60,000 nucleotides of DNA from Strigamia acuminata (Eukaryota; Arthropoda; Chilopoda; Geophilomorpha; Linotaeniidae): positions 6,909,605-6,969,604 of the forward strand of contig OX442321.1 in assembly GCA_949358305.1 (NCBI GenBank). Direction: 5' to 3'. Made by a program: the position numbers and the translations under genes. Below are positions 669-24,357 of this stretch, piece after piece. Numbering within the stretch: position 1 is the first letter of the stretch; each line of letters begins with the position of its first letter. The notes below the pieces were generated by a model that did no database searches, was not told where the DNA came from, and saw nothing but the letters and a program-made list of their open reading frames with translations.

Positions 669-1100
669 ATCAACAACTGTTAACTTTATTTGCCTTTCAA
701 AAAACTCTCTTCCTCCGTCTGTTTGAATCACTCTAATCTTGTTTTTTAACAAACTTAGAATAAACACTTAAATATTAATAATTTTGAACTCAATTTACAG
801 ATTGATTATCACAAGTTAATTGTAAAAGAGAATATCTTGCGTCAATTCTCTGCCATTTATATCCTAAATACTCAAATTCGTTCTGCAATATAAAACATTT
901 ATTGAACATATATTAAACAAATGTAACAAACGATAAACCGAAATTGTAATTGCTGACAAAAATTGCAGTTTTGAATAAGAGCCGCGGCTTTTAATCGATA
1001 AAATAACGTGGTACAGTGTTATAAATATCTTACAATTACAATAAGAATAAACAAAAACACATAAACCAAAAACTATACCACTTTTTATCGACATATCCAT
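669..1100 (-). pseudogene. IR-type receptor, 5' exons only (rest outside window)
   Basis: Minus-strand 5' exons of a receptor unit whose remaining exons would lie below position 1, beyond the LTR at 1-538. Visible are a start exon with ATG at 1100 (MDMSIKSG then a hydrophobic run, a possible signal peptide), the 84-bp N exon 799-882 (ends CDNQS before a GT donor) and the 69-bp exon 669-737 (IRVIQTDGG...). Both core exons keep GT/AG borders. The start exon is one base shorter than in the units at 2054 and 5380, which changes its reading frame. It could be part of a working gene or a pseudogene; this window cannot decide. Confidence 0.6.
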
Positions 1101-2053
1101 ACCCTACCTTGGCAATCCTTTTCAAAAGCTTCTCTGCAATCAAGATATTCACTCAAAAATTATAATTAAAAACACTATACAAGTCTACACCGTGTATACC
1201 ATTATTTAAAATTAGAATAATACTACAACATCTAGCTGGGTTGAATTGTAAGGTTTCAGTTTCATTGTAACCGATGACACACACTATACAACAAAATTAA
1301 GCTGCTTTGTAACAAATTATTTTCTTTCATATTCAAATGCTTTTACTTACATGTTTGGAGCAAAAAGATCACGAATACCAGAAGAAACATTATGAATAAC
1401 ACCAAATAGTCTGAAGTTAAAAACGTATTAAATTAATGCAATCGTTCCTATTGCTGTGTCAAAAGGACAAATAGTAGGAAGTTTAAACTCTGTTTCGCTC
1501 CTGAATGGCACCACAAATTTAACCGGTCACTAATGACGACATGTATTGAAAAGCATTATCGATTTAACGAAACAGAATGTTTGACAAGCATTATGCTGAT
1601 GAAAATATTTTGATAAACAACACTCTTGAGAATTGCTGATAAAAAGTAAATTGAGTTTTAATGGTCTTTGTGAATTCAATTCTACATAGGCCTAGGTATA
1701 CAACTTACTACATATTTATTGCTATTCTAAAAATAGATGAAATCGAAGCTGAAATGGTTGGTCTATTTTTTGCACCTTAATTTAGCTGACCACAGGTGAT
1801 TTGATTAGTTTGAGTTACACAGTTCTGCAATATTGAAACGCAACAGACAAAAGTAGGTGCAACAATTCAAAGATATTTACAGTTAAAAATAAATTTTTCA
1901 ATAATCAGTTCAAATACACACGTGATAAATAGTTAAAACAATGGATAAATTTAGTTGGAAAGATGTGTGAACTGTACTCAACTTAATAATAAATACAATC
2001 AATAAAAGTTAGGTGCCACAATTCAAAAATAATTTAACGAGTGGATATTGAAT
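1101..2053. other. Intergenic block of the receptor tandem unit
   Basis: No coding sequence. It is closely repeated at about 4440-5379, 10760-11715 and 33645-34670, so it is part of the duplicated unit. On the minus strand it holds a candidate 5' leader exon ending at a consensus donor (GTAAGT, plus-strand 1345-1350) and an acceptor (TTGATTGCAG near 1134) just before the start exon. The promoter should lie above about 1370, in the AT-rich part that includes the tgctgtgtcaaaaggac motif; no specific promoter element was proven. Confidence 0.5.
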
Positions 2054-4438
2054 TCACAAAATGAATTTATCAATAATTAGTTCAAATATACCAATAATTA
2101 AAGATATTAAAATTGCACCCATTAAGATTACAAAAGGTCCAATTATTTGACCAAACGACACGGGATTGAATTGATTTTCTAAACATCCAATCAGCTTCGG
2201 AAAGTAGCGTTGATACTCCACTGATAAAATTCCACACTGCTTCAATAATAAAGTTCTGTTTAAAAAAAAAACATTAATTAAAATGATGCAATAGTTTCTC
2301 AACTTTGGTTTGCTATACTTAATAACTGATATCTATTTACTTGTAATTGAAATATTCGGCATACGGAAAATGTTTCGAATAACCTAATGATACAGATTCC
2401 CTGTTGACGTATTGAGGTGCGACAGCAAAGTTGCAGTTGTTTTGAATGATACTTTCCAAAGCTTGAAGTGGTAGTATTAAACCAAATTTTCCATTAGACA
2501 CCAACTCAAACCCTTCATTTCGAGTTCTAACTTTTGACACAGGCCAATTTTCATATGGTGGTTTCTATTAAAGATATCTATTGTAACTAATACACATAAA
2601 ATAAATAAAATGATACCTGGAATATTTCTTCCGAAACAGTGCCTTTAAAAATCACTGGCCAAAACTCATTCTTCATAAACATTTCACCAAGGGAAGAAAA
2701 AGGGACTTTGGTGTCTTTTGTTGCAAGCAAAGAAGTCAATATTGAATTGTGACTAATAAATATCAACATGGAAAAAACTATGTAGATTCCAAAAACAAGT
2801 TTCAGGCACTTCAATGATAAACTGTTAAAGTTGCCTAAATAAATATAAAACATTTACTTAATTTGCATCCATTGTTCTTAAAACCATCCAAACCTTGTAA
2901 GACAATTGGCCAACAAAGAAATAACTCGTCACTGAAATTTCGAAAATGCTTTCTACGGGAAACGTAATTTGCCAAAACGTTGACTGAAATAACTAAAAGG
3001 TTTATTGCAAATACGCACAGCCACATTGCACCACCAAACGGTTGCAAATAGAAACTATAATTGTATTCATGTTCATCTATTTTTCTGTATACAATCTTCT
3101 CCACTTCTGAATGAAATTCTGGTGAGAAGTTTACATAGTCTCTTCTCTGTCTAGTAATGCTAATACCACAAGAAATGTCAGCTGTCTAAACAAAATAAGA
3201 AGACTTTAAAATTCTTAATATAACTTAAGCTAAATCTGACGTATAATACACACCTCTTGTATAAGATCACCCATCATTCCTGTCCAACTTCCATTTATAA
3301 AGGCTCCAAATTGATTATGTTTGTTCCGAATAATTTTAAAACTTAATTTATACAATTTATAATGTCAATCAGTTGACACACACAAGCAAATAACTTATTT
3401 CCTTTTTTATATTTTACCTTGTGTTAAATTGAGTTTTAAAAATGTTAAAAACTTCCCCAAAAAAACCTCCTACTGTAAATGAATTATTTACGTAGATTAA
3501 CGGAAAATTTGGCTGTACCTAAAGAAAACGTTGAAAGAAGAGCCAGTTTAGCGAAAATATGCGAGTTAACTTCTTCAAAATCGTTTCTCAGATCTCATTT
3601 CTTCCAAAAGTAAAAAAAAACTAAAGTGCCTGGCTCGTTATAACGAATGGCAAGGGACCAGAGAAATCGGTTTGTTATAATGAAAGTTTGTCATATCAAA
3701 TATTTTTAACATCGTGTTTTAAGATTGAGACCAACCAAACAATCAAGCCATTTTTAACTATTCGTTGTAACAATAAATTCGTTATAACAATAAATTCGTT
3801 GTATAGCAGTTCGTTATAATGAGGTTCAACTGTACCGGCATTTTCAAATTTTCAGAGAAATGGGTTTTGAAGAAGTAGAGCCTTTACATACATCAATAAC
3901 TGTTAACGTTATTTGCCTTTCAAAAAACTCTCTTCCTCCGTCCGTTTGAATCACTCTAATCTTGTATTTTAACAAACTTAGAATAAACACTTAAAAATTA
4001 ATCGTTTTGAACTCAACTTACAGATTGATTATCACAAGTTAATTGTAAAAGAGAATATCTTGCATCAATTCTCTGCCATTTATATCCTAAATACTCAAAT
4101 TCGTTCTGCAATATAAAACATTTATTAAACATATATTAAACAAATCTAACAAACGAAAAACCGAAATTGTAATTGCTGCCAAAAATGGCAGTTTTGAATA
4201 AGAGCCGCGGCTTTTAATCGATAAAATATGGTAATTTGAACGCAACTTTTCTATTTATATTCGTTCTGCAATAGACAACATTTAATGATGGTGTGGACGA
4301 AAAATTCACCACAACTTAAAATGCAAAGCTATCTACTTAAAACGTGGTACAGTGTTATAAATACCTTACAATTACAATAAGAATAAGAAAAAACACATAA
4401 AAACAAAAACTACACCACTTTTTATCAACATATCCATA
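2054..4438 (-). CDS. Ionotropic receptor-like protein, array unit 1
   Basis: Predicted ligand-gated cation channel of the ionotropic receptor family, expected in the sensory-neuron membrane. Exons on the minus strand: start exon near 4438 (MDMLIKSG plus hydrophobic run), N 4022-4105, 3892-3960, 3418-3518 (GGFFGEVFNIF), S1 3254-3341 (NGSWTGMMGDL), S1-end/M1/pore 2894-3185 (RRDYVNFS, then MWLCVFAINLLV, then LCWPIVLQ), M3 2617-2834 (SHNSILTSLLA, equivalent of the iGluR SYTANLAAF motif), S2 2341-2564, last exon 2054-2255 with M4. All core splice phases agree and no stop interrupts them. The Arg of the S1 motif that binds ligand in glutamate receptors aligns with an Arg here (TRQRRDYVNFS). The link between start exon and N exon is unresolved: the start exon runs into TAA unless an early donor is used. 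No large amino-terminal domain is seen. Confidence 0.82.
3621..3834. repeat. Pogo/Tigger-like MITE in receptor intron
   Basis: Ends resemble inverted TACAGT(C/T)G..CCTC..TTATAACGAA; the left end is degraded. It lies in the intron between the 69-bp and 101-bp exons, the same place as in the units at 5380, 11716, 34671 and 40738. TA-flanked pogo/mariner families carry CAGT-type ends of this kind; the family assignment is inference. Confidence 0.6.
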
Positions 4439-4439
4439 T

Positions 4440-5379
4440 CCTACCTTGGCAATCCTTTTCAAAAGGTTCTCTGCAATCAAGATAATTATATCAAAAAATA
4501 ATAATTAAAAACACTATACAAGTCTACACCGTATATACCATTATTTAAAATTAAAATAATACTACAACATCTAGTTGGGTTGAATTGTAAGGTTTCACTT
4601 TCATTGTAACCGATGACACACACTATACAACAAAATTAAGCTCCTTTTTAACGAATTATTTTCTTTCATATTCAAATGCTTTTACTTACATGTTTGGAGC
4701 AAAAAGATCACGAATACCAGAAGAAACATTATGAAACTAAAGTTAAGAACGTATTAAATGAATGCAATCGTTCCTATTGCTGTGTCAAAAGGGCAAATAG
4801 TAGGAAGTTTAAACTCTGTTTCGCTCCTGAATGGCACCACTAATTTAACCGATCACTAATGACTACTGAGGACATGTATTGAAAAGCAATATCGATTTAA
4901 CGAAACAATGTTTGACAAGCATTAAGCTGATGAAAATGTGTTGGTAAACAACACTCTTGAGAATTGCTGATAAAAAGTAAATTGATTTTTAGTGGTCTTT
5001 GTGAACTCAATTCTATGTACGCCTACAACTTACTGGATGTTTATTGCTATTCTACAAATAGGTGAAATCGAAGCTGAAATAGTTGGTCTATTTTTTGCGC
5101 CTTAATTTAGCTGACCATAGAGGATTTGATTAGTTTGAGTTACACAGTACTGCAATATTGAAATAAGCCACAACAAAAGTAGGTGCAACAATTCAAAGAT
5201 ATTTACAGTTAAAAATAAATTTTTCAATAATCAGTTCAAATACACACGTGATAAATAGTTAAATCAATGGATAAATTTAGCTGGAAAGTTGTGTGAACTG
5301 TACTCAACTTAATAATAAATACAATCAATAAAAGTTAGGTGCCACAATTCATAAATAATTCAACAAGTGCATATTGAAT
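4440..5379. other. Intergenic block of the tandem unit
   Basis: Near-copy of 1101-2053 with no open coding sequence. It carries the candidate 5' leader exon of unit 1 (donor GTAAGT on the minus strand, plus-strand 4684-4689). It also has the same ATCAATAAAAGTTAGGTGCC stretch just below the stop codon of each unit, which may form the 3' UTR or downstream spacer. Confidence 0.45.
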
Positions 5380-8300
5380 TCACAGAATGAATTTATGAAT
5401 AATTAGTTCAAATAACCAAGTAATCAAAGATATTAAAATTGCACCCATTAAGATTACAAAAGGTCCAATTATTTGACCAAACGACACGGAATTGAATTGA
5501 TTTTCTAAACATCCAATCAGCTTCGGAAAGTAGCGTTGAAGCTCCACTGATAAAATTCCACACTGCTTCAATAATAAACTTCTGTTTAAAAAAAAAACAT
5601 TAATTAAACTGATGCAATAGTTTCTCAACATTGGTTTGCTACACATAATAGCTGAAATTTGTTTACTTGTAATTGAAATATTCGGCATACGGGAAATGTT
5701 TCGAATAACCTAATGATACAGATTGCCTGTCGACAGAATGAGATGCGACAGCAAAGTTGCAGTAGTTTTGGTTGACACGTTCCACAGCTCCAAATGGTAT
5801 TATAAAACCAAATTTTCCATTAAACACCAATTCAAACCCTTCTATTAGATCTCTAACTTTTGAGACAGGCCAATTTTCATACGGTGGTTTCTATTAAAAA
5901 TATCTACTTTAATTGATACACTTAAAATTAATAAAATAATACCTGGAATATTTCTTCTGTAACAGCGCCCTTAATAATCATTGGCGAAAACTCATTCTTC
6001 AGAAACATTTCACCAAGTGAAGAAAAAGGGACTTCGGTGTCTTTAGTTGCAAGCAAAGAAGTCAATATTGAATTGTGACTAATAAATATCACCATGGAAA
6101 AAACTATGTAGATTCCAAAAACTAGTTTCATGCACTTCAATGGTAAACTGTTAAAGTTGCCTAAATAAATATAAAACATTTACTCTATTTGCATCCATTG
6201 TTCTTAAAACCATTCAAACCTTGTAAGACAATTGGCCAACAAAGAAATAACTCGTCACTGAAATTTCGAAAAGGCTTTCTACGGGAAACGTAATTTGCCA
6301 AAACGTTGACTGAAATAACTAAAAGGTTTATCGCAAATACGCACAGCCACATTGCACCACCAAACGGTTGCAAATAGAAACTATAATTGTATTCGTGTTC
6401 ATCTACTTTTCTGTACACAATCTTCTGCACTTCTGAATGAAATTCTGGTGAGAAGTTTACATAGTCTCTTCTCTGTCTAGTAACGCTCATACCACAAGAA
6501 ATGTCAGCTGTCTAAACAAAATAAGAAGACTTCAATATTCCTAATATAACTTAAGCTAAATCTGACGTATAATACACACCTCTTGTGTAAGATCACCCAT
6601 CATCCCTGTCCAACTTCCATTTATAAGGGCTCCAAATTGATTATGTTTGTTCCGAATGATTTTAAAACTTTATTTATACAATTTATAATGTCAATCAGTT
6701 GACACACACAAGCAAATAACTTAATTCCTTTTTTATATTTTACCTTGTGTTAAAATGAGTTTTAAAAATGTTAAAAACTTCCCCAAAAAAACCTCCTACT
6801 GTAAATGAATTATTTACGTAGATTAACGGATAATTTGGCAGAACCTAAAGAAAACGTTTAAAGAAGAGCCAGTTTAGCGAAAATATGCGAGTTAACTTCT
6901 TCAAAATCGTTTCTCAGATCTCATTTCTTCCAAAAATAAAAGAAAAAACTAAAGTGCCTCCTCGCTCGTTATAACGAATGGCAAGGGACCAGAGTAATCG
7001 GTTTGTTATAATGAAAGTTTGTTACATCAAATATTTTTAACATCGTGTTTTAAGGTTGACCAACCAACCAAGCCATTTTTAGCTATTCGTTACAACAATA
7101 AATTCGTTATATGGCAGTTCGTTATAATGAGGTTCAACTGTATCAGCATTTTCAAATTTTAAGAGAAATGGGTTTTGAAGAAGTAGAGCACTTACATACA
7201 TCAATAACTGTTAACGTTATTTGTCTTTCAAAAAACTCTCTTCCTCCGTCCGTTTGAATCACTCTAATCTGGTATTTTAACAAACTTAGAATAAACACTT
7301 AAAAATTAATCATTTTGAACTCAACTTACAGATTGATTGTTACAAGTTAATTGTAAAAGGGAATATCTTGCATCAATTCTCTGCCATTTATAACCTAAAT
7401 ACTCAAATTCGTTCTGCAAAATAAAACATTTATTGAACATACTGTATATTAAACAAATGTAACAAACGAAAACCGCAATTGTAATTGCTGGCAAAAATAG
7501 CAGTTTTGAATAAGACCCGCGGCTCTTAATCGATAAATTACAGTAATCTGAACACCACTTACAAATTGATTATCACATGTGACCGCTTGGCCACCCAGGA
7601 GACCTGCGGCACTGCCACACACCGCTATACGGCCCCAAAGGTCATCCCCTCTGTGGGTGAGTGATCTAGCCTGGGGGAGGAGGGAGCTAAGAGGTGTGGT
7701 GAGGAGAGGAGTGACAGACACCGACCAGGACGGTCTTGTGTAGAGAGTCTCTTGCTAGTCGAGAGGAGAGAAGGTATTCATCAGGTGGACAAGAAGTGTC
7801 TCGGGCTTGGACTCTGTACTCCTCACAGGGTTTCTTCATTTCATCGCTTTTCATTTCGTCGCCGCGCCCAAAACGAAAAAAGGGCGACGGAATGAAGGGC
7901 GATGAAATGATACGGTTGACAACCAAAACAACCCAAACCGAACAAAAGGGCGACGAAATGATACGGCGACGAAATAAAGGGCGACGAAATAAAGGGCGAC
8001 GAAACGATTAGGCTAAGTAACCGAACATATTGACAGTTCTAAACTTTGCAACATTGGGCAGTAAAAGCCAATTTGCCAAATATCCACCGGCCCAATATAG
8101 TGCTAAGCTAGTTAGTCTTCCCATTGTTTTGCTTAGTATTGATACAACTATAGCATTAAAACAGTTCCTATAAGCAAATAATCTAAGGTGAATGTTACGT
8201 AGATTCGGAAGCATTTGTGTGACAATGCCGAGATCATCGTCTGTCCATTCGTTTAGTATTAGATTTTCGAGAGAATATGTGTTCCGCATTTCGTTGCAAG

Positions 8301-10755
8301 TAAAGTTTTGTTTGAGGAGTTTAAATAAGTTAAGCCATATCTGGACAGCACAGTCTAATTCTTTTAAACAAAGCAGAGTTTTTACTACGACGTTACGCTT
8401 TGCGGTGGTCTATGCAAATCGCGGTGAAATGCCACAACAATGACATGGCTACAAAATGACATGGCGACGAAATGACATGGCGACGAAATGAAAAAATATT
8501 TTCCAACATAACATTTATTAAAAAAAAATACAAGGGCGACAAAATGAATGGCGGCGAAATGAAGTGACCTCCTCCTCACCATTCACCACGATGAAGCGCA
8601 GTGCTATGGCGGTCCCCATAGTGCAGCCTCCATGAGTGGACGCATGGGTCGTAGGTAAGTCTGACACGAATGTTTAGTCGAACCGACCACGTGAGGTCAC
8701 TTCATTTCGTCGCCGTTCATTTCGTCACCCTCGTATTTTTTTTTAATGTAGGGTTTGTAGGAAAATTTTTTTTCATTCCGTCGCCCTCATTTCATCATCA
8801 TTTCATTTCGTCGCTATATCATTTCGTCGCCATATAATTTCGTCGCCATATCGTTTCGTCGCCATGTCATTGTTGTGGCATTTCGTGTGCTATTTGCACA
8901 ATCAATATCTCAAAATCAAAACAAATCCCCAACAATGCAATCTCAAACAAATAAATTCAATACATAAAACACACTTCTGACACTGCGCTTAGATTCTTCT
9001 CAATCTTTCCCTTTTCATTTGAGAACTTCATCGCAATTTTTCGCTGGTTTTGAATCTCCGCAACGCCTTTAGTTGGTTCTCCTCGCGCACTATTCCCGTC
9101 GTGGCTCGTATCGAATAATAATCATCGACTCTCGCATCAACCACATCCAAACTTCCCTCGAATTCATCGAAACTCTTGGCAATCTCGTACAAATTCGCCC
9201 TCAATTCCTCCGCTTGAATTTTGCGTCCATTCTCGTTTACTTCCTTTTCGTCCTCAAGCTGCGCTTCCCCGCATCGCCGCAACCCATCCAACTCGTTTTT
9301 ATCACGTTTGGCTAACTTGGCATCCAATTTGGCCCCTTTTTTTATCAAGTTCGACCAGTTTTTGCATCAATTTCGGCCAACTTTGCATCCAACTCGGCTA
9401 GTTTTGGTCAAGTTTGACTCCCTTGTTCTCCAAGTCGCTCTTCGTACGGCCGTCAAATGCTGTTTTGTGGCTGCATTTTCCCCCCATCTGGTCCCTCGTC
9501 TTTGGTTACGGACGCCGTAGCATTTCGTCGCCCTTCATTTCGTCGCCGTGTCATTTCGTCGCCCTTCTGTTCGGTTTGGATTCTTTTGGTTGTTCAACCA
9601 TATCATTTCGTCGCCCTTTTTTCGTTTTGGGTGTCATTTCGTCGCCAAAAACGGCGACAAAATGACACGACGACGAAATGAAGGGCGACGAAATGAAGAA
9701 ACCCCGACCACGTCACCCATTGGGCTCACGCCTAGTGTGTGACAGGTCAGTTGCCGGTGCGGCGTGCCTTCGTGGCACTCCCGCAACGGGTAGCGGGATT
9801 CCCCATACCCCTAGACAACACTAATAAAGGCCAACCAACCAATATTAGGGAAGTTTCCGTTATTTACGTAAGTATGCGTCCCAAACCAGTGTCTTCAGTC
9901 CCCTGATTGCACTGGCGAAGACCATACCAATCACACAAATGAGTTCAAAAAAACAATTTCTGGAATCATTTCTCTGTCATTGGTATTCTAAATATTTATA
10001 TTCGTTCTGCAATAGACAACATTTAATGATGAGGTTGTGACCGTTTGGCCATCCTAGTGGCCGATGTCACTCCACACACCACCTGGTGGCCCAGAGCCGT
10101 CCCCCTCTTAGAGGAGTGGACCGGCCTAGCTGGGGAGGAGGGACTGAGTGGTGTGATGAGAGAGAGACGTTGCTGAGAGAGCCGAGGGTGAAGACGTGCC
10201 AGGGTGAGCTGCTATGGTCTCAGCCACAGCAGAGACAACTGCTGACTCTGCTCCTCTCACCATTCAACACTGTGACGCTCAGCAGCAGAAAGATGTGCCT
10301 GCTGCAGCCACCATGAGCGGCTACATGGGTCGTATGGGTAAGTACGGCAGAATGTTCGTCCGACGCGACCGACCACATCACCCATGGGACTTAGGTCCTG
10401 TGTGTGACGAGTCGGGCGCCGGTGTAGCGTGCCTAACAGGACAGCCACACAGTAAGATAGGTGACCCAACCCCTAGACAACGATTAAAGGCCAAAACCCA
10501 ACAATCTGAGTCCCTGTCTTGTTATTACGTGATGTATGCGTCCCTCCCGCTGTGGTTAATCCCCATACCATGGCGGGTAAGACCATATCCCAGTTACAAG
10601 GTGGAAGAAAAAATCACCACAACTTAAAATGCAAAGCTAACTATGTAAAACGTGGTACAGTGTTATACGTCGTACAAGTAAATACCTTACAATTACAATT
10701 ACAATAAGAATAAACAAAAACACATAAAGACAAAAACTCGACCACTTTTTATCAA
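5380..10755 (-). CDS. Ionotropic receptor-like protein, array unit 2, with transposon-filled 5' introns
   Basis: Close paralogue of unit 1. Exons: 5380-5581 (M4), 5667-5890 (S2), 5943-6160 (M3), 6220-6511 (S1-end, M1, pore), 6580-6667, 6744-6844, 7200-7268 and N exon 7330-7413, all with the same lengths and phases as unit 1. Above the N exon lies a second, different N exon (7563-10005, ending CDNQ) that is split by the solo LTR at 7578-9935. Next come the solo LTR at 10036-10598 and a start exon with ATG near 10755 (MDMLIKSGRVFVFMCF). If transcripts start there, the last intron to the intact N exon is more than 3 kb and full of mobile DNA. The coding exons look intact; whether the 5' end still works is unclear. 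Confidence 0.75.
6949..7142. repeat. Pogo-like MITE in receptor intron
   Basis: Same element and same intron as 3621-3834; ends gttataatgaggttcaactgta, with a degenerate left end (aaagtgcctcctcgctcgtt). Confidence 0.6.
7827..8571. mobile_element. Non-autonomous DNA element 1 with iterated ends and captured gene fragment
   Basis: A 745-bp insertion flanked by a perfect 8-bp duplication CTCCTCAC (7819-7826 and 8572-8579). Left end AGGGTTTCTTCATTTC; right end, inverted, GAGGTCACTTCATTTC. Subterminal zones (7827-8010 and 8421-8571) consist of many direct and inverted ATTTCGTCGCC units. The interior 8011-8420 lacks these units and holds a minus-strand coding fragment. No transposase is present. 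The 8-bp duplication suits hAT-like superfamilies (also P or Merlin); the superfamily is not settled. Confidence 0.85.
8008..8410 (-). pseudogene. Captured leucine-rich-repeat-like coding fragment
   Basis: Open minus-strand frame across the interior of element 1. It reads with LRR-like spacing of leucines (for example SLENLILNEW, LPNLRNIHL, LTSLALYW), like the LRR part of F-box/LRR proteins. The frame stays open upstream of its first ATG at 8289 to about 8410, as expected of a captured exon piece rather than a complete gene. It ends where the iterated transposon end begins. The parent gene is not in this window. Confidence 0.5.
8693..9705. mobile_element. Non-autonomous DNA element 2, same family, opposite orientation, different cargo
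   Basis: A 1,013-bp insertion flanked by a perfect 8-bp duplication GACCACGT (8685-8692 and 9706-9713). Left end GAGGTCACTTCATTTCG matches the right end of element 1. The inverted right end GGGGTTTCTTCATTTCG matches its left end. The subterminal zones 8693-8885 and 9521-9705 align with element 1 when reversed, including the GTCATTGTTGTGGCATTT inner border and the GAACAACCAAAA-type spacer. The interior 8886-9520 is unrelated to that of element 1. Confidence 0.87.
9028..9348 (-). pseudogene. Captured coiled-coil-like coding fragment
   Basis: Minus-strand frame of about 106 codons without an ATG start (the first codon counted is TTG), rich in K, E, D, R and L with heptad-like spacing (for example KLDAKLAKRDKNELDGL, LEDEKEVNENG). 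This suggests a piece of a coiled-coil protein. It lies wholly inside the interior of element 2. The repeated CAA(A/G)TTGGATGC-like sequence just upstream may be part of the same source. Product unknown; chance openness cannot be excluded. Confidence 0.4.
10036..10598 (+). mobile_element. Solo LTR, TGTGACC family, with AGGT duplication
   Basis: A 563-bp sequence from TGTGACCGTTTGG to CCCAGTTACA, flanked by AGGT at 10032-10035 and 10599-10602. The unfilled site is seen at 32955 (aatgatgAGGTggaag), so both borders are exact. It shares the CACTGTGACGCTCAG and CTAGACAACGATTAAAGGCC blocks with the other LTRs. No internal genes, so one LTR is left after recombination. Confidence 0.92.
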
Positions 10756-10759
10756 CATA

Positions 10760-11715
10760 TCCATACCCTACCTTGGCAATCCTTTTCAAAAGGTTCTCTG
10801 CAATCAAGATAATCACTCAAAAAATTATAATCAAAACACTATACAAGTCTACACCGTATATACCATTATTTAAAATTAGAATAATACTACAACATCTAGT
10901 TGGGTTGAATCGTAAGGTTTCAGTTTCATTGTAACCGATGACACACACTATACAACAAAATTAAGCTCCTGTTTAACGAATTATTTTCTTTAATATTCAA
11001 ATGCTTTTACTTACATGTTTGGAGCAAAAAGATCACGAATACCAGAAGAAACATTATGAATAACACCAAATAGTCCAAAGTGAAGAGGGTATTAAATTAA
11101 TGCAATCGTTCCTATTGCTGTGTCAAAAAAGCAAATAGTAGGAAGTTTAAACTCTGTTTCGCTCCTGAATGGCACCACTAATTTAACCGATCACTAATGA
11201 CGACAGGTATTGAAAAGCATTATCGATTTAACGAAACAGAATGTTTGACAACCATTATGCTGATGAAAATGTTTTGGTAAACAACACTCTTGAGAATTGC
11301 TGATAAAAAGTAAATTGAGTTTTAATGGTCTTTGTGAACTCAATTCTATGTCCGCCTACAACTTACTGCATGTTTATTGCTATTCTACAAATAGATGAAA
11401 TCGAAGCTGAAATGGTTGGTTTATTTTTTGCGCCTTAATTTAGCTGACCATAAGGGATTTGATTAGTTTGAGTTACACAGTTCTGCAATATTGAAATAAG
11501 CCACAGACAAAAGTAGGTGCAACAATTCAAAGATATTTACAGTTAAAAATAAATTTTTCAATAATCAGTTCAAATACACACGTGATAAATAGTTAAATCA
11601 ATGGGTAAATTTAGCTGGAAAGTTATGTGAACTGTACTCAACTTAATATAATAATTACAATCAATAAAAGTTAGGTGCCACAATTCATAAATAATTCAAC
11701 CAGTGCATACTGAAT
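10760..11715. other. Intergenic block of the tandem unit
   Basis: Another near-copy of 1101-2053, with the candidate 5' leader donor on the minus strand at plus-strand 11008-11013. No open reading frame worth reporting. Confidence 0.45.
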
Positions 11716-13733
11716 TCACAAAAAAAATTTATCAATAATTAGTTCAAATAACCAAGTAAATAAAGATATTGAAATTGCACCCATTAAGATTACAAAAGGT
11801 CCAATTATTTCACCAAACGACACGGGATTTAATTGATTTTCTGCACATCCAGGCAGCTTCGGAAAGTAACGTTGATACTCCACTGATAAAATTCCACACT
11901 CCTTCAATAATAAACTTCTGATTAAAAAAAAACATTAATTAAACTCATGCAATAATTTCTCAACTTTGGTTTGCTACACATAATAGCTGAAATTTGTTTA
12001 CTTGTAATTGAAATATTCGGCATACGGGAAATGTTTCGAATAACCTAATGATACAGACTGCCTGTCGACGGATTGAGGTGCGACAGCAAAGTTGCATTTG
12101 TTTTGAATGAAACGTTCCACAGCTTCAAATGATATTATAAAACCAAATTTTCCATTATACACGAACTGAATCCCTTCTTTTTTGTCTCTAACTTTTGACA
12201 CAGGCCAATTTTCATATGGTGGTTTCTATTAAAAATATCTACTTTAACTGATCCACTTAAAATAAATAAAATAATACCTGGAATATTTCTTCCGTACTAC
12301 TGCCCTTAAAAATCACTGGCAAAAATTCATTCTTCATAAACATTTCACCAAGGGAGGAAAAAGGCACTTTGGTGTCTTTTATTGCAAGCAAAGAAGTCAA
12401 TATTGAATTGTGACTAATAAATATCACCATGGAAAAAACTATGTAGATTCCAAAAACAAGTTTCATGCTCTTCAATGGTAAACTGTTACAGTTGCCTAAA
12501 TAAATATAAAACATTTACTTTATTTGCATCCATTGTTCTTTAAAGCATTTAAACCTTGTAAGACAATTGGCCAACAAAGAAATAACTCGTCACTGAAATT
12601 TTGAAAACGCTTTCTACGGGAAACGTAATTTGCCAAAATGTTGACTGAAATAACTAAAAGGTTTATCGCAAATACGGACAGCCACATTTCACCACTAAAC
12701 GGTTGCAAATAGAAACTATAATTGTATTCGTGTTCATCTACTTTTCTGTACACAATCTTCTGCACTTCTGAATGAAATTCTGGTGAGAAGTTTACATAGT
12801 CTCTTCTCTGTCTAGTAACGCTCATACCACAAGAAATGTCAGCCGTCTAAACAAAATAAGAAGACTTCAATATTCCTAATATAACTTAAGCTAAATCTGA
12901 CGTATAATACACACCTCTTGTGTAAGATCACCCATCATCCCTGTCCAACTTCCATTTATAAGGGCTCCAAATTGATTATGTTTGTTCCGAATGATTTTAA
13001 AACTTAGTTTATACAATTTATAATGTCAATCAGTTGACACACACAAGCAAATAACTTAATTCCTTTTTTATATTTTACCTTGTGTTGAATTGAGTTTTAA
13101 AAATGTTAAAAACTTCCCCAAAAAAACCTCCTACTGTAAATGAATTATTTACGTAGATTACCGGATAATTTGGCGGTACCTAAAAAAAACGTTTAAAGAA
13201 GAGCCAGTTTAGCAAAAATATGCGAGTTAACTTCTTCAAAATCGTTTCTCAGATCTCAGTTCTTCCAAAAGTAAAAAAAAAACTACAGTTGTGCCTTGCT
13301 CGTTATAACAAATCGCAAGGAACCAGAGAAATTGGTTTATTATAATAAACGTTTGTTCAATCAAATATTTTTAACATGGTGTTCTAAGGTTGACCAACCA
13401 ACCAATCAAGCCATTTTTAACTATTCGTTATAACAAGTTCGTTATAATGAGGTTCAACTGTACCAGCATTTTCGAATTTTCAGAGAAACGGGTTTTGAAG
13501 AAGTAAAGCCCTTACGTACATCAACAGCTGTTATCTTTATTTCCCTTTCAAAAAACTGTCTTCCTCCGTCCTTTTGGATAACCCTAATCTTGTATTTTAA
13601 CAAATTTAGAATAAACACTTAAAAATTAATCACTTTGAACTCAACTTACAGATTGATTATCACACGTTAATTGTAAAAGAGGATATCTTGCATCAATTCT
13701 CTGCCATTTATATCCTAAATACTCAAATTCGTT
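11716..13733 (-). CDS. Ionotropic receptor-like protein, array unit 3
   Basis: Exons 11716-11917 (M4), 12002-12225 (S2), 12278-12495 (M3), 12555-12846 (S1-end, M1, pore), 12915-13002 (S1), 13079-13179, 13520-13588 and N exon 13650-13733. All match the lengths of unit 1, and every border has GT/AG. Landmarks: SVTRQRRDYVNFS with the S1 Arg, MWLSVFAINLL (M1), LCWPIVLQ (pore loop), SHNSILTSLLA (M3), SKHFPYAEYFNYK (end of S2), GPFVILMGAI (M4). The upstream start exon differs from units 1-2: ATG near 13900 reads MFEFIFRWFSGKCCYCK, shared with the unit at 34671, so two 5' end types are mixed in the array. Confidence 0.82.
13284..13462. repeat. Pogo-like MITE in receptor intron, both ends visible
   Basis: Left end TACAGTTGTGCCTTGCTCG; right end inverted TACAGTTGAACCTCATTATA; flanked by short A/T-rich sequence. 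Same intron position as in the paralogues. Confidence 0.65.
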
Positions 13734-13739
13734 CTGAAA

Positions 13740-16586
13740 TATAAAACATTTATTGACTTGGTGAAAAAAAATTTCCACAACAACATCGACAAATAAAAAT
13801 AAAATTGAAAACAGAATACTTAAATTACGATAGGTTTATCAATATCTTACAGTAGCAACACTTTCCCGAAAACCACCTAAAAATAAACTCAAACATTCTT
13901 TAAATTCGCAATTAAAAACTCTGCTCGCAAATTACCACGATTCGAAATTAAAGTCCTGACGGAAAATCCAACGCATCTTGTCTCACAACCGAGACTAAAC
14001 ACTAGAAATAAATTCCTACAGTATTTCAATTTCTTACATCAGTTACTTAGCTTACGTAGAAAAGATACGTTTATGAGTATGCGGAGATACATATCAGCAA
14101 TAGTTTGTCAATATTAGTACAATATGCGTATGAACACCTGCCGCTTAAAAATAGACAAAGTGATAAAATTTTAATGAGTTTTAACGGTAATTTTATGTGT
14201 TTTGTGTTCTGTCAAGATCGATGTCATTTTATACATAAAAAAGGAAAATATAGCGACATAAACATGCAGTAGCTCCAGCCAAAATAATGATTAAATTTTC
14301 AATATATCGGACACCATATTGGTTTGTGTCTGAAGTTTCAACTTATTAAATTAATACATTAGTAACTAGCTGTGTCAAAATTTAAATAGCGGGAAATATA
14401 AACTCTGCTTCGCTCCTAAATTCACTAATGAAGATTTGTACACATTGCCCAGAAAACTTTTAATTGCACTCAAAATGATGCAAAAACCACCCGAAAATAT
14501 CAATGGAATAAAATGTGAATCATAGCTGAGACGTTACAGAATTTTGGAAATTATACGGATCTTAAATTATGTGTAATCACATATTACTACACGTCAATAA
14601 TTAATTCTTTTTTTCATTTTGCATGTTGAAACACAAAAATAGCTGCTGAAATCCTGACCCACGGAAAAAATATTTGAGAAAATGGAAAGAATAACAAAAA
14701 TAAAAACTTATGAAAATTTGAAAACGCAGTTGTTATTTCACCTGGTGTTTTAACTGTTTCGAGTTTTTTCCAAATCCATTGAAAAATAAAATAAAACACT
14801 GCCACACTGGTTTGAAAGCACAAAAATAAATCCTACTTACATGATGTCAAACTTGCAAATTGATCCGTCGGCATTACTCACGCTGGTTTGTTCGATTCTT
14901 GTGCCAAGACAAAATCGCATTGTTCAATCACGAAAAGGTTTATTATGTTCGTGGCTTAATCATACGAGACATGAAAATGTTGCAGAATGACGCCGCCATT
15001 TTAACCTCAAAACTCGTCGTCGCGACGACGTGGGAAGTGGCAGCTGATGAACATTGGATTCGTCGTAACTGGAAGCATACTTTTATTTTCCGGTCCCAAC
15101 TGATCAAATTAGGTAAACGTTTATGTTTGGAATGTTTTTGTTACATATCGTACCATACTTCCTTCTTGGATACATTCGTCCGGGACCTTGCCTTCTCGTA
15201 AACATGTAAGCGGAAACCAAGAGCGGAAACGATCAGTTTTTAGATACTCCGAGCGTCTAAAACCTGATCGCACCGGATGTTGCATCCCGTAATCGAGTAT
15301 TATAGTATTGTATAAAATAATAATTGTTTTCCGTCATCGTGAGTGAAAACATTAAAACGTTCATTTTTATTCCAAAACTTGATCGTCAGCAGATACAGTC
15401 GTACTAAAATAATTGTTTCGTGTTTTGATAATAGTTGGCGCTGTTGTTTTGATCAAGGACGACTACGGTATTCCAAATCTACCCATGTTTTGTAACTAAA
15501 TTTCTAGTTTTCCAAACACTAGTCGGGAAGGCCAACAAATGATTGAACTGTATTCTAAATATCAAATTTTTTTTTCTTTATTTAGGTTGCATTCAATAAT
15601 TTTTTGTTTGATTGTTTAATTTGAAATCCTAATAAAACGATTTGGAATTAAAGTAATAATAGAAAAGCCATCGCAGCTCGTCTGTAAGCATCTAGTCTCA
15701 CAACGGAAACAAAACACTATAAATGAATTTCTAACATTTTTCAATTTCTTACATATTCTACCTCACGTGCATGAAGAAGACATAAGCAAAGATACATATC
15801 AGCAATAGCGTGTAAATATCAGCTGATTATGTGCTTGATTGTTGAATGTACAGCAGCTAAACAAAAATTCACGTGTTGTCGCTTAAAAAAAATAATAAAC
15901 TGATAAAATTTTAGCGAGGTTCCACGTAATAAAAGGGTAGAGTTATTTTTATGGGTTTTGAAAGTCTAACAGTATCGATTTCATTTAAATAATAACAAGA
16001 AAAGTATAGTGTCATAAACATGCAGCTAACTCCATGCAAACTAGATCAATAGTTTTTTATCATTTTTCAATGGGCAATTAAGGCGGCTTTCCTTTTTGAC
16101 GTTTCTCTCGTCTCGTTAGTTTATGTGGTTTTGCAACGCAAGGTGTATAATTTTCACAATTTCTCAACAACAGACTAAGTATAAATCAATACTAAAGTTT
16201 CATCATGCACAAGACCACACAGGACAGCATTCAGCTTTTGGTGTTTGTGAGATTGTTTTTATATCTTGTGACCGCTTGTTTCCTTTTGCACAATAGATAA
16301 TCAAAATTGGAACCGAGATAAAAATTCGACATTTCCTTCAAAAACTGAAGATCAAATTGGAAGGAAAACCACTCACCTTTGTGATAAAATTTGATTATGT
16401 ATTGATCGGTTGAAGGTGTTTGAGATACATTAGAACCTCAAAGGTAATTCAAACTTACGGTTTTAATTATTATTAAGGATTTAAACAAGGATTTTATTTG
16501 GTTTTGGTATAATAGCTACAAATTTGCTATTACTTGTGCAATTTAAGTGCCAACAGCACTGATTAACTGAATATGTGCAAGTTATC
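13740..16586. other. Receptor 5' region and long spacer, no confident gene
   Basis: Contains the MFEFIF-type start exon of unit 3 (near 13900) and a conserved upstream block (about 13935-14115, also at 15680-15870, 25020-25260, 36940-37130 and 57660-57800) with a minus-strand donor near 14049 (GTAAGC). The rest has two short open frames, 14614-14823 minus and 14860-15201 plus, that resemble nothing I know. A perfect 16-bp palindrome CGTCGTCGCGACGACG sits at 15015-15030. Confidence 0.4.
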
Positions 16587-19071: not shown

Positions 19072-19650
19072 AGGACCCAGGAGTAGAGACAGGGTAAACT
19101 GTATCTTTAAAATTTTTTTTTTGGAATAGATTCTGTCTTTCTTTTCTGTATTTTCAGATAGTTAGGCCTGGCTTAGGCCTAACTAGTATTACTTGGGACT
19201 TGCTAGAGTTACTAGGCCCAGTTAGGCCTATCTAGGGTTATTAAGCCTAACCTACAATTCTGCCACCAGGAGGTCAACAATGACTCCAGCCATCATCTGA
19301 ACAACAAAGGGCCGCAACAATGACACCAGGAAACAAAGAGCCCATAGAATGCCCCTGACAATGCCAACGCAACACTATGTCATTATTAGCTCTCAGCTTA
19401 GGTAGTGCTAGGGTTTCCTTTTCCCACTAGGGTACGGTAAGGGGATAATAGCTGCACACATCAAGCCACCTCCCAGGAGAGGCTGGCCAGTGCTGAACCC
19501 AGCCTAGCTCCACGGAGAAGTACCTACGGGAAGGGGGTCAGGGCAGGTCTGGGAAGTGAGAGCACTCACTGAATTGTTGCACCTATCTGGATTGTTGGAC
19601 CGGATTTCATCGCAATCACGGAGTCAGGACTGACAAGATACCCCGCGGCG
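19072..19650 (+). other. Leader between primer site and gag of element E
   Basis: Untranslated leader of the retrotransposon. It contains repeated gttaggcctaactag-type palindromic stretches (about 19162-19250), including TTAGGCCTAA, that could fold. The gag frame is open from about 19615 without an ATG; the first in-frame ATG is at 19720. Confidence 0.4.
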
Positions 19651-20781
19651 GTGGATAGTGACGATGACCCGGAATTGGTAGCTGGCGTAAACCAGGAGTC
19701 GCAGACAAGTCTATCCGGAATGGCGTCAACAAGCGGAGCTGGGACAGCCTATGTGGCGCACGTGCCCCCATTTCAAGGCAAAACCGAGACGGATTGGAGT
19801 TTGTGGGTTGAACGGTTCGAGTTCATGGCGAAGCTACACAAATTCTATTCGGATAAGGAAAATTTGAAGATGTTCTTGGTGGCCTCGATGGGCGCAGATA
19901 CCCATGCCCTGCTACACAAGTTGACTGCTCCGACAAAGATTTCGGATATGACTTATGAGGACATAGTCGAAAAGATAAAGGCATACTTTAGTCCGGCGGT
20001 GCCTCCAATTATTATCCGGAACCGGTTACGCAAGCGAGTACGCCAGCCAAAGGAGTCTGTAGCCGCGTATGTTGCTGTTCTCCGCGGTCTTGCAGAGAAG
20101 GGAGATTACGGAGACTCCAAGCAGGTGGACTTTGCGGTCATGGACCAGTTGATTGAGGGACTGGGGAATGCCACGGCAACGCAGTACATTCTCCTGCAAA
20201 AGCCCAAAACCTTAAAGGAGGCAATGGAGATGGCCATGGCATTCGAAGGCGCCGCAGCTGGTGTGGCGGACATGCAAGCCACTACATGTTTCGAACCAGA
20301 TAGCGGAAGAGATATGGTTTTACCCATGGTTCCCGCTAGCATGGTGGCTTACAGCTCTCAGCCCCCTATGGCCCATGTTTATACCAAGGGTGTGGTGTTG
20401 CCACAAAGGCCTTTTGTGAGCACTGGTCAGTCCACCCCTGTGCGCCCGCGAGGTGGTTTACCTTACGGTGCCTGTTGGTATTGCGGTGAAGTGGGACACC
20501 TGAAAAGAGATTGTCCCATGAGGCAACAGGTGCAACAGACAGGTCGTGGTCAACCGATGCAGATGCGGGATGCAAATGCAGGGCCGTCTGGGACCCAACA
20601 GCGTGGTCAAGGAGGGCGTACCGGACGCGGACGCGCACGCGGTGGTGGTCAAAGGCCTGCGTACCAGCCCTTTCAGCAGAGTTGCACCCCAATGAATTAT
20701 GTTCCCTCGGTCACTCAACCGGGATGCCAAATCAAGAATCCCGATTATGACCAGGATGACCCCTTCCGCATGTCAATGTGA
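19651..20781 (+). CDS. gag: Gag polyprotein of Ty3-type element E
   Basis: Nucleocapsid/capsid precursor of about 376 codons. The range given begins at a GTG; the first ATG in frame is 20-odd codons further on (MASTSG). Residues about 40-190 resemble a capsid domain (FQGKTETDWSLWVERFEF, with downstream helical segments such as YFSPAVPPIIIRNRLRKR). A CCHC zinc knuckle CWYCGEVGHLKRDC lies near residue 274, followed by a G/R/Q-rich basic tail suited to RNA binding. It ends with UGA at 20779-20781, and the same frame continues open into pol. No frameshift or internal stop is seen. Confidence 0.9.
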   Translation: MDSDDDPELVAGVNQESQTSLSGMASTSGAGTAYVAHVPPFQGKTETDWSLWVERFEFMAKLHKFYSDKENLKMFLVASMGADTHALLHKLTAPTKISDMTYEDIVEKIKAYFSPAVPPIIIRNRLRKRVRQPKESVAAYVAVLRGLAEKGDYGDSKQVDFAVMDQLIEGLGNATATQYILLQKPKTLKEAMEMAMAFEGAAAGVADMQATTCFEPDSGRDMVLPMVPASMVAYSSQPPMAHVYTKGVVLPQRPFVSTGQSTPVRPRGGLPYGACWYCGEVGHLKRDCPMRQQVQQTGRGQPMQMRDANAGPSGTQQRGQGGRTGRGRARGGGQRPAYQPFQQSCTPMNYVPSVTQPGCQIKNPDYDQDDPFRMSM

Positions 20782-23700
20782 CTTGGCAAGATCCCCGTGG
20801 TAGCAACAGTGGACACTGGTTCAAGATACTCGTTGATCTCCAGAGATACTTTGATGAAGTGGATGACCTTAAGCAACGTGACATGGCCTGTACAACCGAC
20901 CAACATTACGTTGATTGGTTATTTTGGCGAAAGGAGACCCGCACTTGGGGAGATCTACCTGCCGGTTAGGGTAGGAGATGAAGAAGTGAAGTTGCGGTTC
21001 TTGGTCACTGCTGGTCAGGCCACAATACTGCTGGGCAGGGAAGCCACGAGGCAATCTCGTTCTGTGAAAACTTTCCTGATCAACAGGCTGGAGAGACAAC
21101 AAGGGATGCACCACGGGATCAATGGGTCAAGGACCCCACAAGACTTAATTGCGGAGTTGGAAGAGGAGGATACTGTATTGAGACTGTTACTTCAGGAGTA
21201 CAAGGATGTTTTTGAGGCCTCTTTGGGTGTATATACAGGTCCCCCTGTACAACTTTACCTCAAAGAAGGTGTGAAGCCGCGCTTCTTTCGTGCGAGGCCT
21301 GTACCTGTAGCCTTGCGTACGGCAGTGGAAAAGGAACTAGAAAAGGGAGTTGCGGATGGAATTTACCAACCAATCGCATTTTCGGATTGGGCAACCCCGC
21401 TGGTCATAGTTGACAAGAAGGACGGTACAGTGCGGTTATGCGGAGACAACCGGTCAACTGTGAACCCAGCTATCTTACCGGATCCATACCCACTGCCTAG
21501 AGTTTCTGATATTATGGCTAAGCTTGGAGGAAAGAAGTATTTTACCAAGCTTGACATCAGACAGGCGTACCAACAGGTATTGCTCACTCAGGCGAGTTCA
21601 TTTATAGCTGCAATCAACACTCATAAAAGACTCTATGCAGTTAAGAGATTACTTTTTGGTACTATATCAAGCAGCGGAGTATTCCAAAGGATTATGGATA
21701 CAATGTTTGCTGACCTGGATGACGTCTCACCATATCAGGATGACATTTTGATTGCGACGGACACATACGAAGAACATGTGAAGGTGGTCAGGGAAGTCCT
21801 GAGAAGACTCAGAAAAGCGAATCTGCGTTTAGTAAGACGGAAATGCGAGTTTTTCAGGACGCAGGTCGCATATCTGGGATTTCAAGTGGACAGTAGAGGA
21901 ATTCGACCATCTGGAGACAACGTCGCGGCGATTAAGAAGATGCCAGCACCCAACAACTTGCAAGAACTGCGCTCATTTCTAGGGATGGTCCAATTCTATC
22001 TGCAATTTCTACCGCATTTTGCGGAGGTTGCAGAGCCACTGCGAGAGTTATTGCAGGGGAACGCATCCTGGGAGTGGACGCAGAGAAGAGCCACCGCCTT
22101 CAATACCATCAAAGAGATGATTACTAGTGAGAGCCTCCTAGTGCACTACTCACTCCATCATCCACTGGTTCTGGTTGTCGACGCCAGCCCAGTGGGAGTG
22201 GGGGCAGTGTTAAACCACGTGTTGGACAATGGGGAGGAGCGGCCAGTCTTGTATGCGTCCAAGTCACTCTCGCCAACTCAGAGACGCTACAGTCAGACTG
22301 ACCGAGAAGCATTGGCAATCATCTATGCGGTGCAGAAGTTCCACCAGTTCTTATGTGGGAGAAAGTTCAGGATTGTGACTGACCACAAGCCATTGCTCGG
22401 AATATTCGGAGTGACCAATCCTACACCGAATATTATTAGCCCTAGGATGCTAAGGTGGACAATTATCTTGGCAGGCTATAACTACTCAATAGAGCACAGA
22501 CCAGGTCTGGACATTCCAGTGGCTGATGCGTTGAGTAGATTGCCACTGCCAGCCACTAAGATCACAGAGCAATGGGAACAAGAACTGGAGGAAGAGCAGC
22601 ATGTGCGCTTCTTAGTCGAAGACTCGATAATTACTCGTGAGCAATTGGAAATGGCCACATTACTGGATGATGACCTCCATCACGTAATGCAATACGTGAG
22701 GAATGGATGGCCGGATAAGGTCAAGGCATCATTACAGCCATTTAAGTCGCGCAAGACAGAATTGTCAGTCCATCATGACATACTGCTATGGGGACATAGG
22801 GTGATAATACCACCTAGTCTGCGCAAGAAGGCCATGGATTTGCTTCACGAAGGTCATCATGGGATAGTCATGATGAAGAATAAGGCGGCAGCAACAATAT
22901 GGTGGCCGGGGATAACAATGGCGATTGAACAATACGTGGCACAATGTGTTGTGTGTCAACAACACCAGCACGCACCACCACGTGACAATCCCGTTAGTTG
23001 GCCAAGACCTGCTAGACCTTGGAGCAGGATCCATATTGATTTTGCCGGACCGGTCAAGGGCAAGATGTTCCTCATTTTAGTGGACTCTTTGACCGGTTGG
23101 ATGCACGTTGACTTGGTACCAAGCACGTCATCGGCAGCTGCAATCGCTGTGATTAAAAGGAAGTGTGCAGATTTTGGTCTGCCTGACACAATTGTTTCAG
23201 ACAATGCCACGACTTTCACCAGCGAGGAATTTAAGGGATTTATCCGGCGGAACGGTTTACTACACCTGTTCTCACCTGCATTCCACCCTCAGTCCAATGG
23301 ACGAGCGGAGAGAGCGGTACAGACCTTTAAAGGGAAACTGGTCAAGATGGGAATGGTCAATATCCAGGAGCAATTGGATAAGTTCCTATTTTACCAGCAC
23401 AGTACACCGGGAGCGGATGGAAAGTCCCCAGCTGCGCTGATGTTGCAAGGGCATTTTAAGACCCATCTGGACACACTGAAACCAACTGTGGGAGCGGCTC
23501 AAAAGGACCGGCGGCCACCTAAGAGGATATTAGCCCCGGGACAGGAAGTGTGGGCTCGTTCATACAGGAAGGGAGACGCGACATGGATTCCGGCAATAGT
23601 GAAGACTAGGAAGGGGGATGTCGTGTATGAGACCCAGCGTATGGACACCCAAGAGGTTAACGACCGCCACATTAATCAGTTGAGACCGCGGTATCCACAG

Positions 23701-24357
23701 GCTGGGGAGCAGGTGATTGCACCCAGGGAAACCCAAGACACGATCGTACCTAATGTACCATGGAATCCGATGCCTGAGGAACCCAGGCCAAGGAAGTCGG
23801 GAAGGCAGCACACAGTGATCGTGACGAGGACGGTACCAGTTCCTGTTATGGAACCAGTTCCCGTTGCGGGACCGGCAAACACAGGTGCAAATGTGGTTTT
23901 GCCAGAAGTGCAGCCGACCCCAGGTCCAAGTGGCTTGGCAAGGACCGAGGTGCAGAAGACCCCTCGGGTGGTCCCAAGGACAATGAAGGACAGGACTGCA
24001 CCGGTCCGAAGGATGCTTGCGCCGCCCCCATTCGATGTGACACCACGCACGAGGGCTCAGTTTGACTTGTTCCATCAAAGGAGATTGCAACAAGCAGCCA
24101 ATGGAGTCACTGCCCCTCCAGCGGTGCAACCGACAGATGAACAGATGCAACCTGACACAAGATCCACCGATTCGGAGGAAGAGTATGATGACGCGGAAGA
24201 GGAAATTCAGGATCCGAAAGACCCGGATTACCAACCATCGCGTCGGAGTTTAGACTACATAGATAGAAACCTTGGTAAACCACCCAAGAGTGACCTGCGT
24301 CACTACCACACACCGCCCAATGGCCCCAAAGTCACCCCTCCTTGCAGAGTGGAATGA
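20782..24357 (+). CDS. pol: Pol polyprotein of Ty3-type element E
   Basis: Protease, reverse transcriptase, RNase H and integrase in one open frame in phase with gag. Numbering from the GTG at 20797: protease DTG at 6-8; RT with DKKDG and the YQDD catalytic box near 313-316 (YQDD in place of the commoner YLDD); RNase H VVDASPVGVGAV near 461 and TDREAL; integrase zinc binding H..H..C..C near 685-720; integrase core Asp (HIDFAG) near 747, Asp (SDNAT) near 802 and Glu (GRAERA) near 837. A proline-rich tail follows. The RT and integrase motifs resemble the Mag/K02A2.6-like branch of Ty3 elements. The reading frame is intact over about 1,190 codons. Its last 30 or so codons lie in LTR-like sequence. 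Confidence 0.93.
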   Translation, partial: LGKIPVVATVDTGSRYSLISRDTLMKWMTLSNVTWPVQPTNITLIGYFGERRPALGEIYLPVRVGDEEVKLRFLVTAGQATILLGREATRQSRSVKTFLINRLERQQGMHHGINGSRTPQDLIAELEEEDTVLRLLLQEYKDVFEASLGVYTGPPVQLYLKEGVKPRFFRARPVPVALRTAVEKELEKGVADGIYQPIAFSDWATPLVIVDKKDGTVRLCGDNRSTVNPAILPDPYPLPRVSDIMAKLGGKKYFTKLDIRQAYQQVLLTQASSFIAAINTHKRLYAVKRLLFGTISSSGVFQRIMDTMFADLDDVSPYQDDILIATDTYEEHVKVVREVLRRLRKANLRLVRRKCEFFRTQVAYLGFQVDSRGIRPSGDNVAAIKKMPAPNNLQELRSFLGMVQFYLQFLPHFAEVAEPLRELLQGNASWEWTQRRATAFNTIKEMITSESLLVHYSLHHPLVLVVDASPVGVGAVLNHVLDNGEERPVLYASKSLSPTQRRYSQTDREALAIIYAVQKFHQFLCGRKFRIVTDHKPLLGIFGVTNPTPNIISPRMLRWTIILAGYNYSIEHRPGLDIPVADALSRLPLPATKITEQWEQELEEEQHVRFLVEDSIITREQLEMATLLDDDLHHVMQYVRNGWPDKVKASLQPFKSRKTELSVHHDILLWGHRVIIPPSLRKKAMDLLHEGHHGIVMMKNKAAATIWWPGITMAIEQYVAQCVVCQQHQHAPPRDNPVSWPRPARPWSRIHIDFAGPVKGKMFLILVDSLTGWMHVDLVPSTSSAAAIAVIKRKCADFGLPDTIVSDNATTFTSEEFKGFIRRNGLLHLFSPAFHPQSNGRAERAVQTFKGKLVKMGMVNIQEQLDKFLFYQHSTPGADGKSPAALMLQGHFKTHLDTLKPTVGAAQKDRRPPKRILAPGQEVWARSYRKGDATWIPAIVKTRKGDVVYETQRMDTQEVNDRHINQLRPRYPQAGEQVIAPRETQDTIVPNVPWNPMPEEPRPRKSGRQHTVIVTRTVPVPVMEPVPVAGPANTGANVVLPEVQPTPGPSGLARTEVQKTPRVVPRTMKDRTAPVRRMLAPPPFDVTPRTRAQFDLFHQRRLQQAANGVTAPPAVQPTDEQMQPDTRSTDSEEEYDDAEEEIQDPKDPDYQPSRRSLDYIDRNLGKPPKSDLRHYHTPPNGPKVTPPCRVE

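Follow-up and report, generated by a model that had tools for sequence, protein, structure and literature searches.

Probable Pack-MULEs of a Phantom-type Mutator-like family in an animal, Strigamia acuminata

Results

Two insertions with common ends

Much of the window, the 60,000-nucleotide stretch of Strigamia acuminata DNA analyzed here (contig C10, 6909605-6969604), is filled by ~3-kb repeated units at approximately 1005-4248, 4341-7560, 10601-13756, and 34165-37193, which are 88-92% alike in the pairs listed, and two LTR retrotransposons at 19573-24357 and 46059-52510 contribute long open reading frames (ORFs) with reverse transcriptase, RNase H, and integrase. Two further sequences, E1 and E2, are separated by 121 bp and oppositely oriented. 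E1 occupies 7827-8571 (745 bp) and has CTCCTCAC on both flanks, read at 7819-7826 and again at 8572-8579, while E2 occupies 8693-9705 (1013 bp) and has GACCACGT on both flanks, at 8685-8692 and 9706-9713 (all four copies given on the plus strand). E1 lies on the minus strand and comprises a right arm (7827-8022) with the terminus AGGGTTTC and iterated GGCGACGAAAT units, a cargo at 8023-8387, and a left arm (8388-8571) that carries the terminus GAGGTCAC together with some family-internal sequence. E2, on the plus strand, begins with a left arm (8693-8888) that starts GAGGTCACTTCATTTCGTCGCC and contains 16-bp units at 8787-8871, continues through an interior at 8889-9516, and closes with a right arm (9517-9705) that forms a foldback palindrome (DNA fold z = -9.2) ending in GAAGAAACCCC. 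The arms are ~150-200 bp long and are mutually inverted only by way of their common iterated units (I9, 45 nt, 80%). The outermost bases are unequal at the two ends, GAGGTCA at one and GGGGTTT at the other (AGGGTTT in E1), each followed by a common CTTCATTTCGTCGCC.

When E1 is reversed and compared with E2, the left arms align over 146 bp with a local score of 152 (best of 100 shuffles, 31) and the right arms over 163 bp with a score of 182 (best of 100 shuffles, 32). The score for the two interiors, by comparison, is 25, which was equalled in 11 of 100 letter shuffles, and the interiors are therefore unrelated. An earlier note on this DNA had proposed both insertions at these coordinates, with ends in common once one is reversed, a perfect 8-bp target duplication at each, and unrelated interiors, all of which we find to be correct; its limits for the interiors (8011-8420 and 8886-9520) are refined here to 8023-8387 and ~8889-9516. 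A diverged paralogous site at 33004-33553 (plus strand) contains neither element: the alignment runs straight through both insertion points, and a single copy of each target site is present with one substitution relative to the E1 or E2 duplication. Together with the perfect duplications, this empty paralogue indicates that E1 and E2 are both insertions.

A family with several kinds of interior

We searched the assembly (237.5 Mb, 157 contigs) with the ends of the two elements. For the E1 right end there were 106 candidates and for the E2 left end 83, and in each search 40 were scored. The COX1 gene on contig C157 of this assembly has 11 in-frame TGA codons, as expected of a mitochondrial code. 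The resulting sample, set by the queries and not a census, comprises 38 copies with both termini (28, 8, and two coding copies, L022 and L035, which were read whole as L085 and L083); L005, which has no right terminus, and L014, L036, L087, and L088, each with one end outside the fetched stretch, were excluded. End patterns with up to three mismatches occur at 154 and 225 places (0 and 8 for reversed controls), of which the listings covered the first 100 for each end, counts that are likewise no family census as L096, L102, and L103 fall in related families. Target duplications of 8-11 bp are a criterion for Mutator-like elements (MULEs), and 31 of the 38 copies have a perfect one of 8 bp, two of these once the right end is moved by one base; three more are one base off (L030, L096, L100) and four have no duplication (L012, L013, L034, L085). 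Apart from the two coding copies (n = 36) the figures are 30, 3, and 3.

The interiors of the 38 copies fall into 21 with a minisatellite, 11 that look captured and are of four kinds, four with transposase sequence (L029, L030, L083, L085), and two others (L096, L097). The minisatellite between the arms has an 11- or 22-bp TTGTGGCCAAA-like unit and is carried by L091, L092, L004, and 19 further loci (22 with L005). In aphid Phantom elements a mini-satellite is placed after the transposase ORF (PMC6446971). The 11 captured-looking copies are E1, with a leucine-rich repeat (LRR) piece, six with a piece of an OATP transporter, one counted copy with a piece of CPSF2, and E2 with two relatives. Gene capture is thus a minority trait within this sample, in which 21 of 38 copies hold a minisatellite.

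Several loci recovered alongside belong at the margins of the family. The 751-bp element within L096:1-791, whose outermost ends are almost those of the family, has an unrelated interior rich in A+T and a target duplication that agrees at 7 of 8 positions, and is a member of a related family. L102:1-911 and L103:1-911 share the right end GAAGAAACCCC, with iterated AAATTTGCGC units upstream of it, and apparently represent a related transposon family that differs on its left side. The coding-like interior of L097 had zero further matches anywhere in the genome. At L014 (C6:9276439-9279647) a left arm leads into coding-like sequence that contains acidic repeats, and no right end was found within the locus.

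A coding partner of the Phantom type

The same ends as those of E1 and E2 bound a 2,175-bp coding copy at C1:33213776-33215950, which has CCCTGTAC on both flanks and a single open frame of 544 codons, stop to stop. The encoded protein matches the Pfam families MULE (PF10551, 2.2e-12) and, N-terminally, FLYWCH (PF04500, 8e-12). Residues D236, D308, and E439 are invariant across 10 aligned proteins (this ORF and nine of its 19 homologues), and we read these columns as a putative catalytic DDE triad. The best named relative among the 19 homologues found belongs to Strigamia maritima (44%, with 65% of the query covered) and the next named relatives are fungal (Rhizophagus irregularis, 31-33%), so that the transposase by itself would not place the host; a PDB search with the transposase gave no match up to E 1. 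Other coding sequences are in varied condition: a further open frame of 501 codons lies on C12, an open frame at C6:6056952 retains FLYWCH and lacks the MULE domain, and the coding copy at C1:12209345-12211384 is decayed and has no target duplication. L029 and L030 are transposase-deletion derivatives.

Phantom elements combine FLYWCH and MULE domains with 8-10 bp duplications and composite ends (PMC6446971, PMC3169594). On domains, duplications, and ends, and because an intact FLYWCH-plus-MULE ORF lies between the same ends, we assign the present family to the Mutator-like elements, Phantom type. The length of the duplication by itself would be compatible with ends of another superfamily with 8-bp duplications, of which hAT is one; however, a coding copy with the family ends encodes FLYWCH plus MULE, and no hAT transposase was seen between family ends among the copies examined, so that an assignment of this sort has next to no probability.

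Host gene pieces between the ends

The cargo of E1 (8023-8387, minus strand) is a captured piece of an LRR gene, 92% identical to C1:12489071-12489446. This is the best of 36 other genome matches, 33 of which cluster in tandem on C1:12.49-13.14 Mb, and the closest parent is an ORF of 447 codons that matches Pfam LRR families, bearing out the description of this interior as LRR-like in the earlier note. A protein search with this parent returned nothing at E <= 0.001. The frame of the E1 cargo is interrupted by a 5-bp deletion.

Six copies of the family carry the OATP piece, for which the closest parent (C4:2707082-2707657, 90% over 545 bp) belongs to a set of six related places within C4:2.52-2.73 Mb and matches Pfam OATP at 1.5e-21 once its exons are joined. 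Five of the six are identical over the 632-bp interior query and have perfect duplications that all differ (ATATATCC, AATCTTGC, CACTGTGC, TCGAATTG, and ATACGGGG), which indicates that the OATP chimera has transposed repeatedly and recently. The sixth copy (L012) is 93% identical and has no target duplication. Deletions break the frame of the OATP cargo. We considered an ATG within it as the 5' end of the gene and rejected this reading, as the parent codes upstream of that ATG and the homology lies mid-protein.

For the CPSF2 piece the parent lies at C1:53551770-53552556 (91%), another parental place of equal identity lies at C1:53760907, and a 307-aa reading of the parent matches the CPSF2 of PDB 6urg at E 1.7e-113. 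Stops interrupt the frame of the captured piece. The chimeric element occurs at C1:28188248-28189193 and C1:35472696-35473641, two places separated by 7 Mb whose flanks and target duplication agree; the one at C1:28188249 was therefore treated as a duplicate of one insertion and left uncounted, the pair reflecting duplication either of a genome segment or in the assembly. The CPSF2-like parent (L101:819-2438, minus strand) is itself a 540-aa intronless ORF, most of the 120 homologues listed being ~720-790 aa, and it may be a retrocopy; its second place is 0.2 Mb off. Its best relative among these 120 is from Strigamia maritima (54%), the next by score is at 48%, and all non-Strigamia matches listed are at or below 49%. 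These relatives point to an arthropod host, probably a geophilomorph centipede.

The interior of E2 (8889-9516, plus strand) resembles, in antisense, a multicopy coiled-coil gene family. It is shared with copies on C8 (97%) and C3 (89%), and a genome DNA search with the whole interior as query returned, besides itself and these two sisters, nine partial matches (73-84%), with no closest parent found. By local comparison the nine partial matches fall within ORFs of a multicopy family that has heptad-like repeats and is rich in 'LDAKLA'-like ones. The earlier note's description of this interior as coiled-coil-like is reasonable on this resemblance, although one E2-like ORF searched against Pfam matched no family above the cut-off. 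With relatives this distant and partial (73-84%), we do not call E2 a confirmed capture, and since two other copies (97% and 89%) have its interior, E2 is one of a multicopy set and not newly captured.

Paired ends of one family thus enclose four types of cargo, LRR (E1), OATP, CPSF2, and the coiled-coil type (E2), and three of these types have a parental gene at another place in the genome, the kind of outcome that the earlier note had set as support for capture. Host gene pieces sit between MULE ends without an intact transposase in E1, the six OATP copies, and the CPSF2 copy. The arms themselves give at most short, weak matches to the parental loci L052, L089, and L090 (best E 0.003 over 33 bp). 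One could read the interiors instead as leftovers of larger autonomous transposons of the family, that is, as internal-deletion derivatives and not host genes, a reading for which L029 and L030 offer actual examples of transposase deletion and with which the lack of a close host parent for E2 and L097 would agree. The parents found for LRR, OATP, and CPSF2 contradict it: the matches of the LRR and OATP pieces lie in tandem gene clusters, the CPSF2 gene is conserved across animals, and a coding copy read whole (L083) has the transposase as the sole long ORF of its interior. We regard leftover transposon sequence as a very improbable source of these interiors, and capture of host gene pieces as the preferred reading.

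Breakpoints and the route of capture

If the gene pieces had arrived as cDNA, by reverse transcription of mRNA, introns should be missing from them. The LRR and CPSF2 parents are intronless over the captured stretch and so do not speak against this route; the OATP piece, however, retains parental intron DNA (two introns, placed by frame and GT-AG borders) and was thus copied at the DNA level, which makes a cDNA origin most unlikely.

We compared short matches at three of the six breakpoints with 200,000 random draws each, using sister-element ends as stand-ins. At the left breakpoint of the CPSF2 piece 9 bp (TCGTCGCCA) are common to the gene and the iterated arm unit (P ~0.0004). The right breakpoints of E1 (3-bp match, P 0.06) and of the OATP piece (2-bp match, P 0.17) are less striking, and the remaining three of the six show no clear match by eye, so that the matches are mostly unremarkable, with the left CPSF2 breakpoint as the exception. 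At the right CPSF2 junction a complete terminal sequence (GGGGTTTCTTC) faces the captured DNA, as would be seen if the gene were bordered by a second, palindromic element. Such an arrangement is what would be expected if two neighboring elements, their inner ends trimmed, moved jointly with the host DNA between them, a bracketing process that serves as a model for Pack-CACTA (PMC13317346). The spacing of only 121 bp between E1 and E2 also speaks for bracketing, whereas the E1 and OATP junctions lie inside the element, have no inner terminus, and do not call for it; we consider it a possible but rather unlikely route for the family. We infer that template switching would account for most of the captures, with bracketing possibly involved in one.

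Discussion

Taken together, the common ends, perfect duplications, coding partner, and identified parents lead us to consider it highly probable that the insertions E1 and E2 represent Pack-MULEs, non-autonomous and gene-carrying, and belong to a Phantom-type Mutator-like family in an animal. The Pack-type capture proposed in the earlier note stands for the LRR, OATP, and CPSF2 pieces, whose parents are known, and needs qualification for E2, where the parent is only a distant family, and for the family at large, in which 21 of 38 copies hold a minisatellite. In the mechanism we favor, transposase from the coding copies would move the family ends in trans, whatever the interior between them, and gene pieces would be copied in from DNA through a switch of template during repair or replication within an element; for CPSF2, two neighboring elements may perhaps have moved as one. 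The chimeras then spread by transposition, which is shown by the five OATP copies and their differing duplications. Judged from the interrupted frames of the CPSF2, OATP, and E1 pieces, the captured cargo is probably not functional as protein. More speculatively, the foldback arms of iterated TCGTCGCC units might themselves act as a capture device, stalling replication or forming hairpins while their G+C-rich units match coding DNA, and plant-like exon shuffling would then arise in an animal through template switching and joint movement; we think this improbable as it stands.

In plants, Pack-MULEs are a textbook source of new combinations of genes. Gene capture by MULEs is well known there but hardly documented in animals. 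The animal genome examined here has such a family, with a coding partner and recent spread, in which several cargoes occur and three parents have been identified. With parents, filled copies, and unfilled copies side by side in one genome, gene acquisition by MULEs becomes testable in an animal.

Surveys have so far recorded little of this kind. A survey of 100 animal reference genomes reports 370 Pack-TIRs and zero Pack-MULE in its counts (PMC8277862), and the term 'Pack-MULE' does not occur in the main text of a MULE survey of 4,268 arthropod genomes (PMC13359780). The Geophilomorpha row of the latter gives 7207, 1061, and 136-141 (PMC13359780), which we take to be element, protein, and TIR length and which, so taken, mismatch the present family. 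Searches of the open-access literature showed no MULE family of an animal for which both parental genes and a coding partner are known, and the animal precedents found there are weaker cases only.

Plant Pack-MULEs, in rice and others, likewise have Mutator-type ends, host-gene interiors, and multicopy chimeras with different duplications (PMC8277862), and thousands are reported in rice (PMC13317346); the present family differs in its animal host, FLYWCH transposase, foldback-like iterated ends, and far fewer copies seen. In its ends and transposase it resembles Tm1 of Meloidogyne, which is described as having a FLYWCH-plus-MULE transposase, foldback-like ends, 8-10 bp duplications, and asymmetric outer 7-bp motifs followed by ~14-bp tandem units (PMC3169594), the units here being 15-16 bp. 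Muta5 of Aedes has an 8-bp terminal motif, 15-bp subterminal units, and duplications of 8 or 9 bp (PMC5225508). The end sequences of both differ from ours and no parental host gene is shown for either in the passages cited (PMC3169594, PMC5225508), although Tm1-HH of Meloidogyne 'may represent a similar acquisition' (PMC3169594).

Three further animal cases involve captured or enclosed DNA. An insertion in Nematostella 'suggestive of a pack-MULE' similarly has MULEs flanking other DNA, but is ~15 kb long and, in the cited account, not further characterized (PMC9842752). Turmoil-1 of C. elegans is an animal DNA transposon with pieces of two host genes, but belongs to the Harbinger superfamily and carries the gene pieces inside its inverted repeats (PMC2572040). 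Ssk-FB4 in Drosophila populations has long repetitive foldback ends and a captured host gene, and has spread with different duplications (PMC8277862); there, one gene is involved, the duplications are 9-10 bp, and the transposase is given as unknown (PMC8277862), whereas the family described here has three parents and a coding partner.
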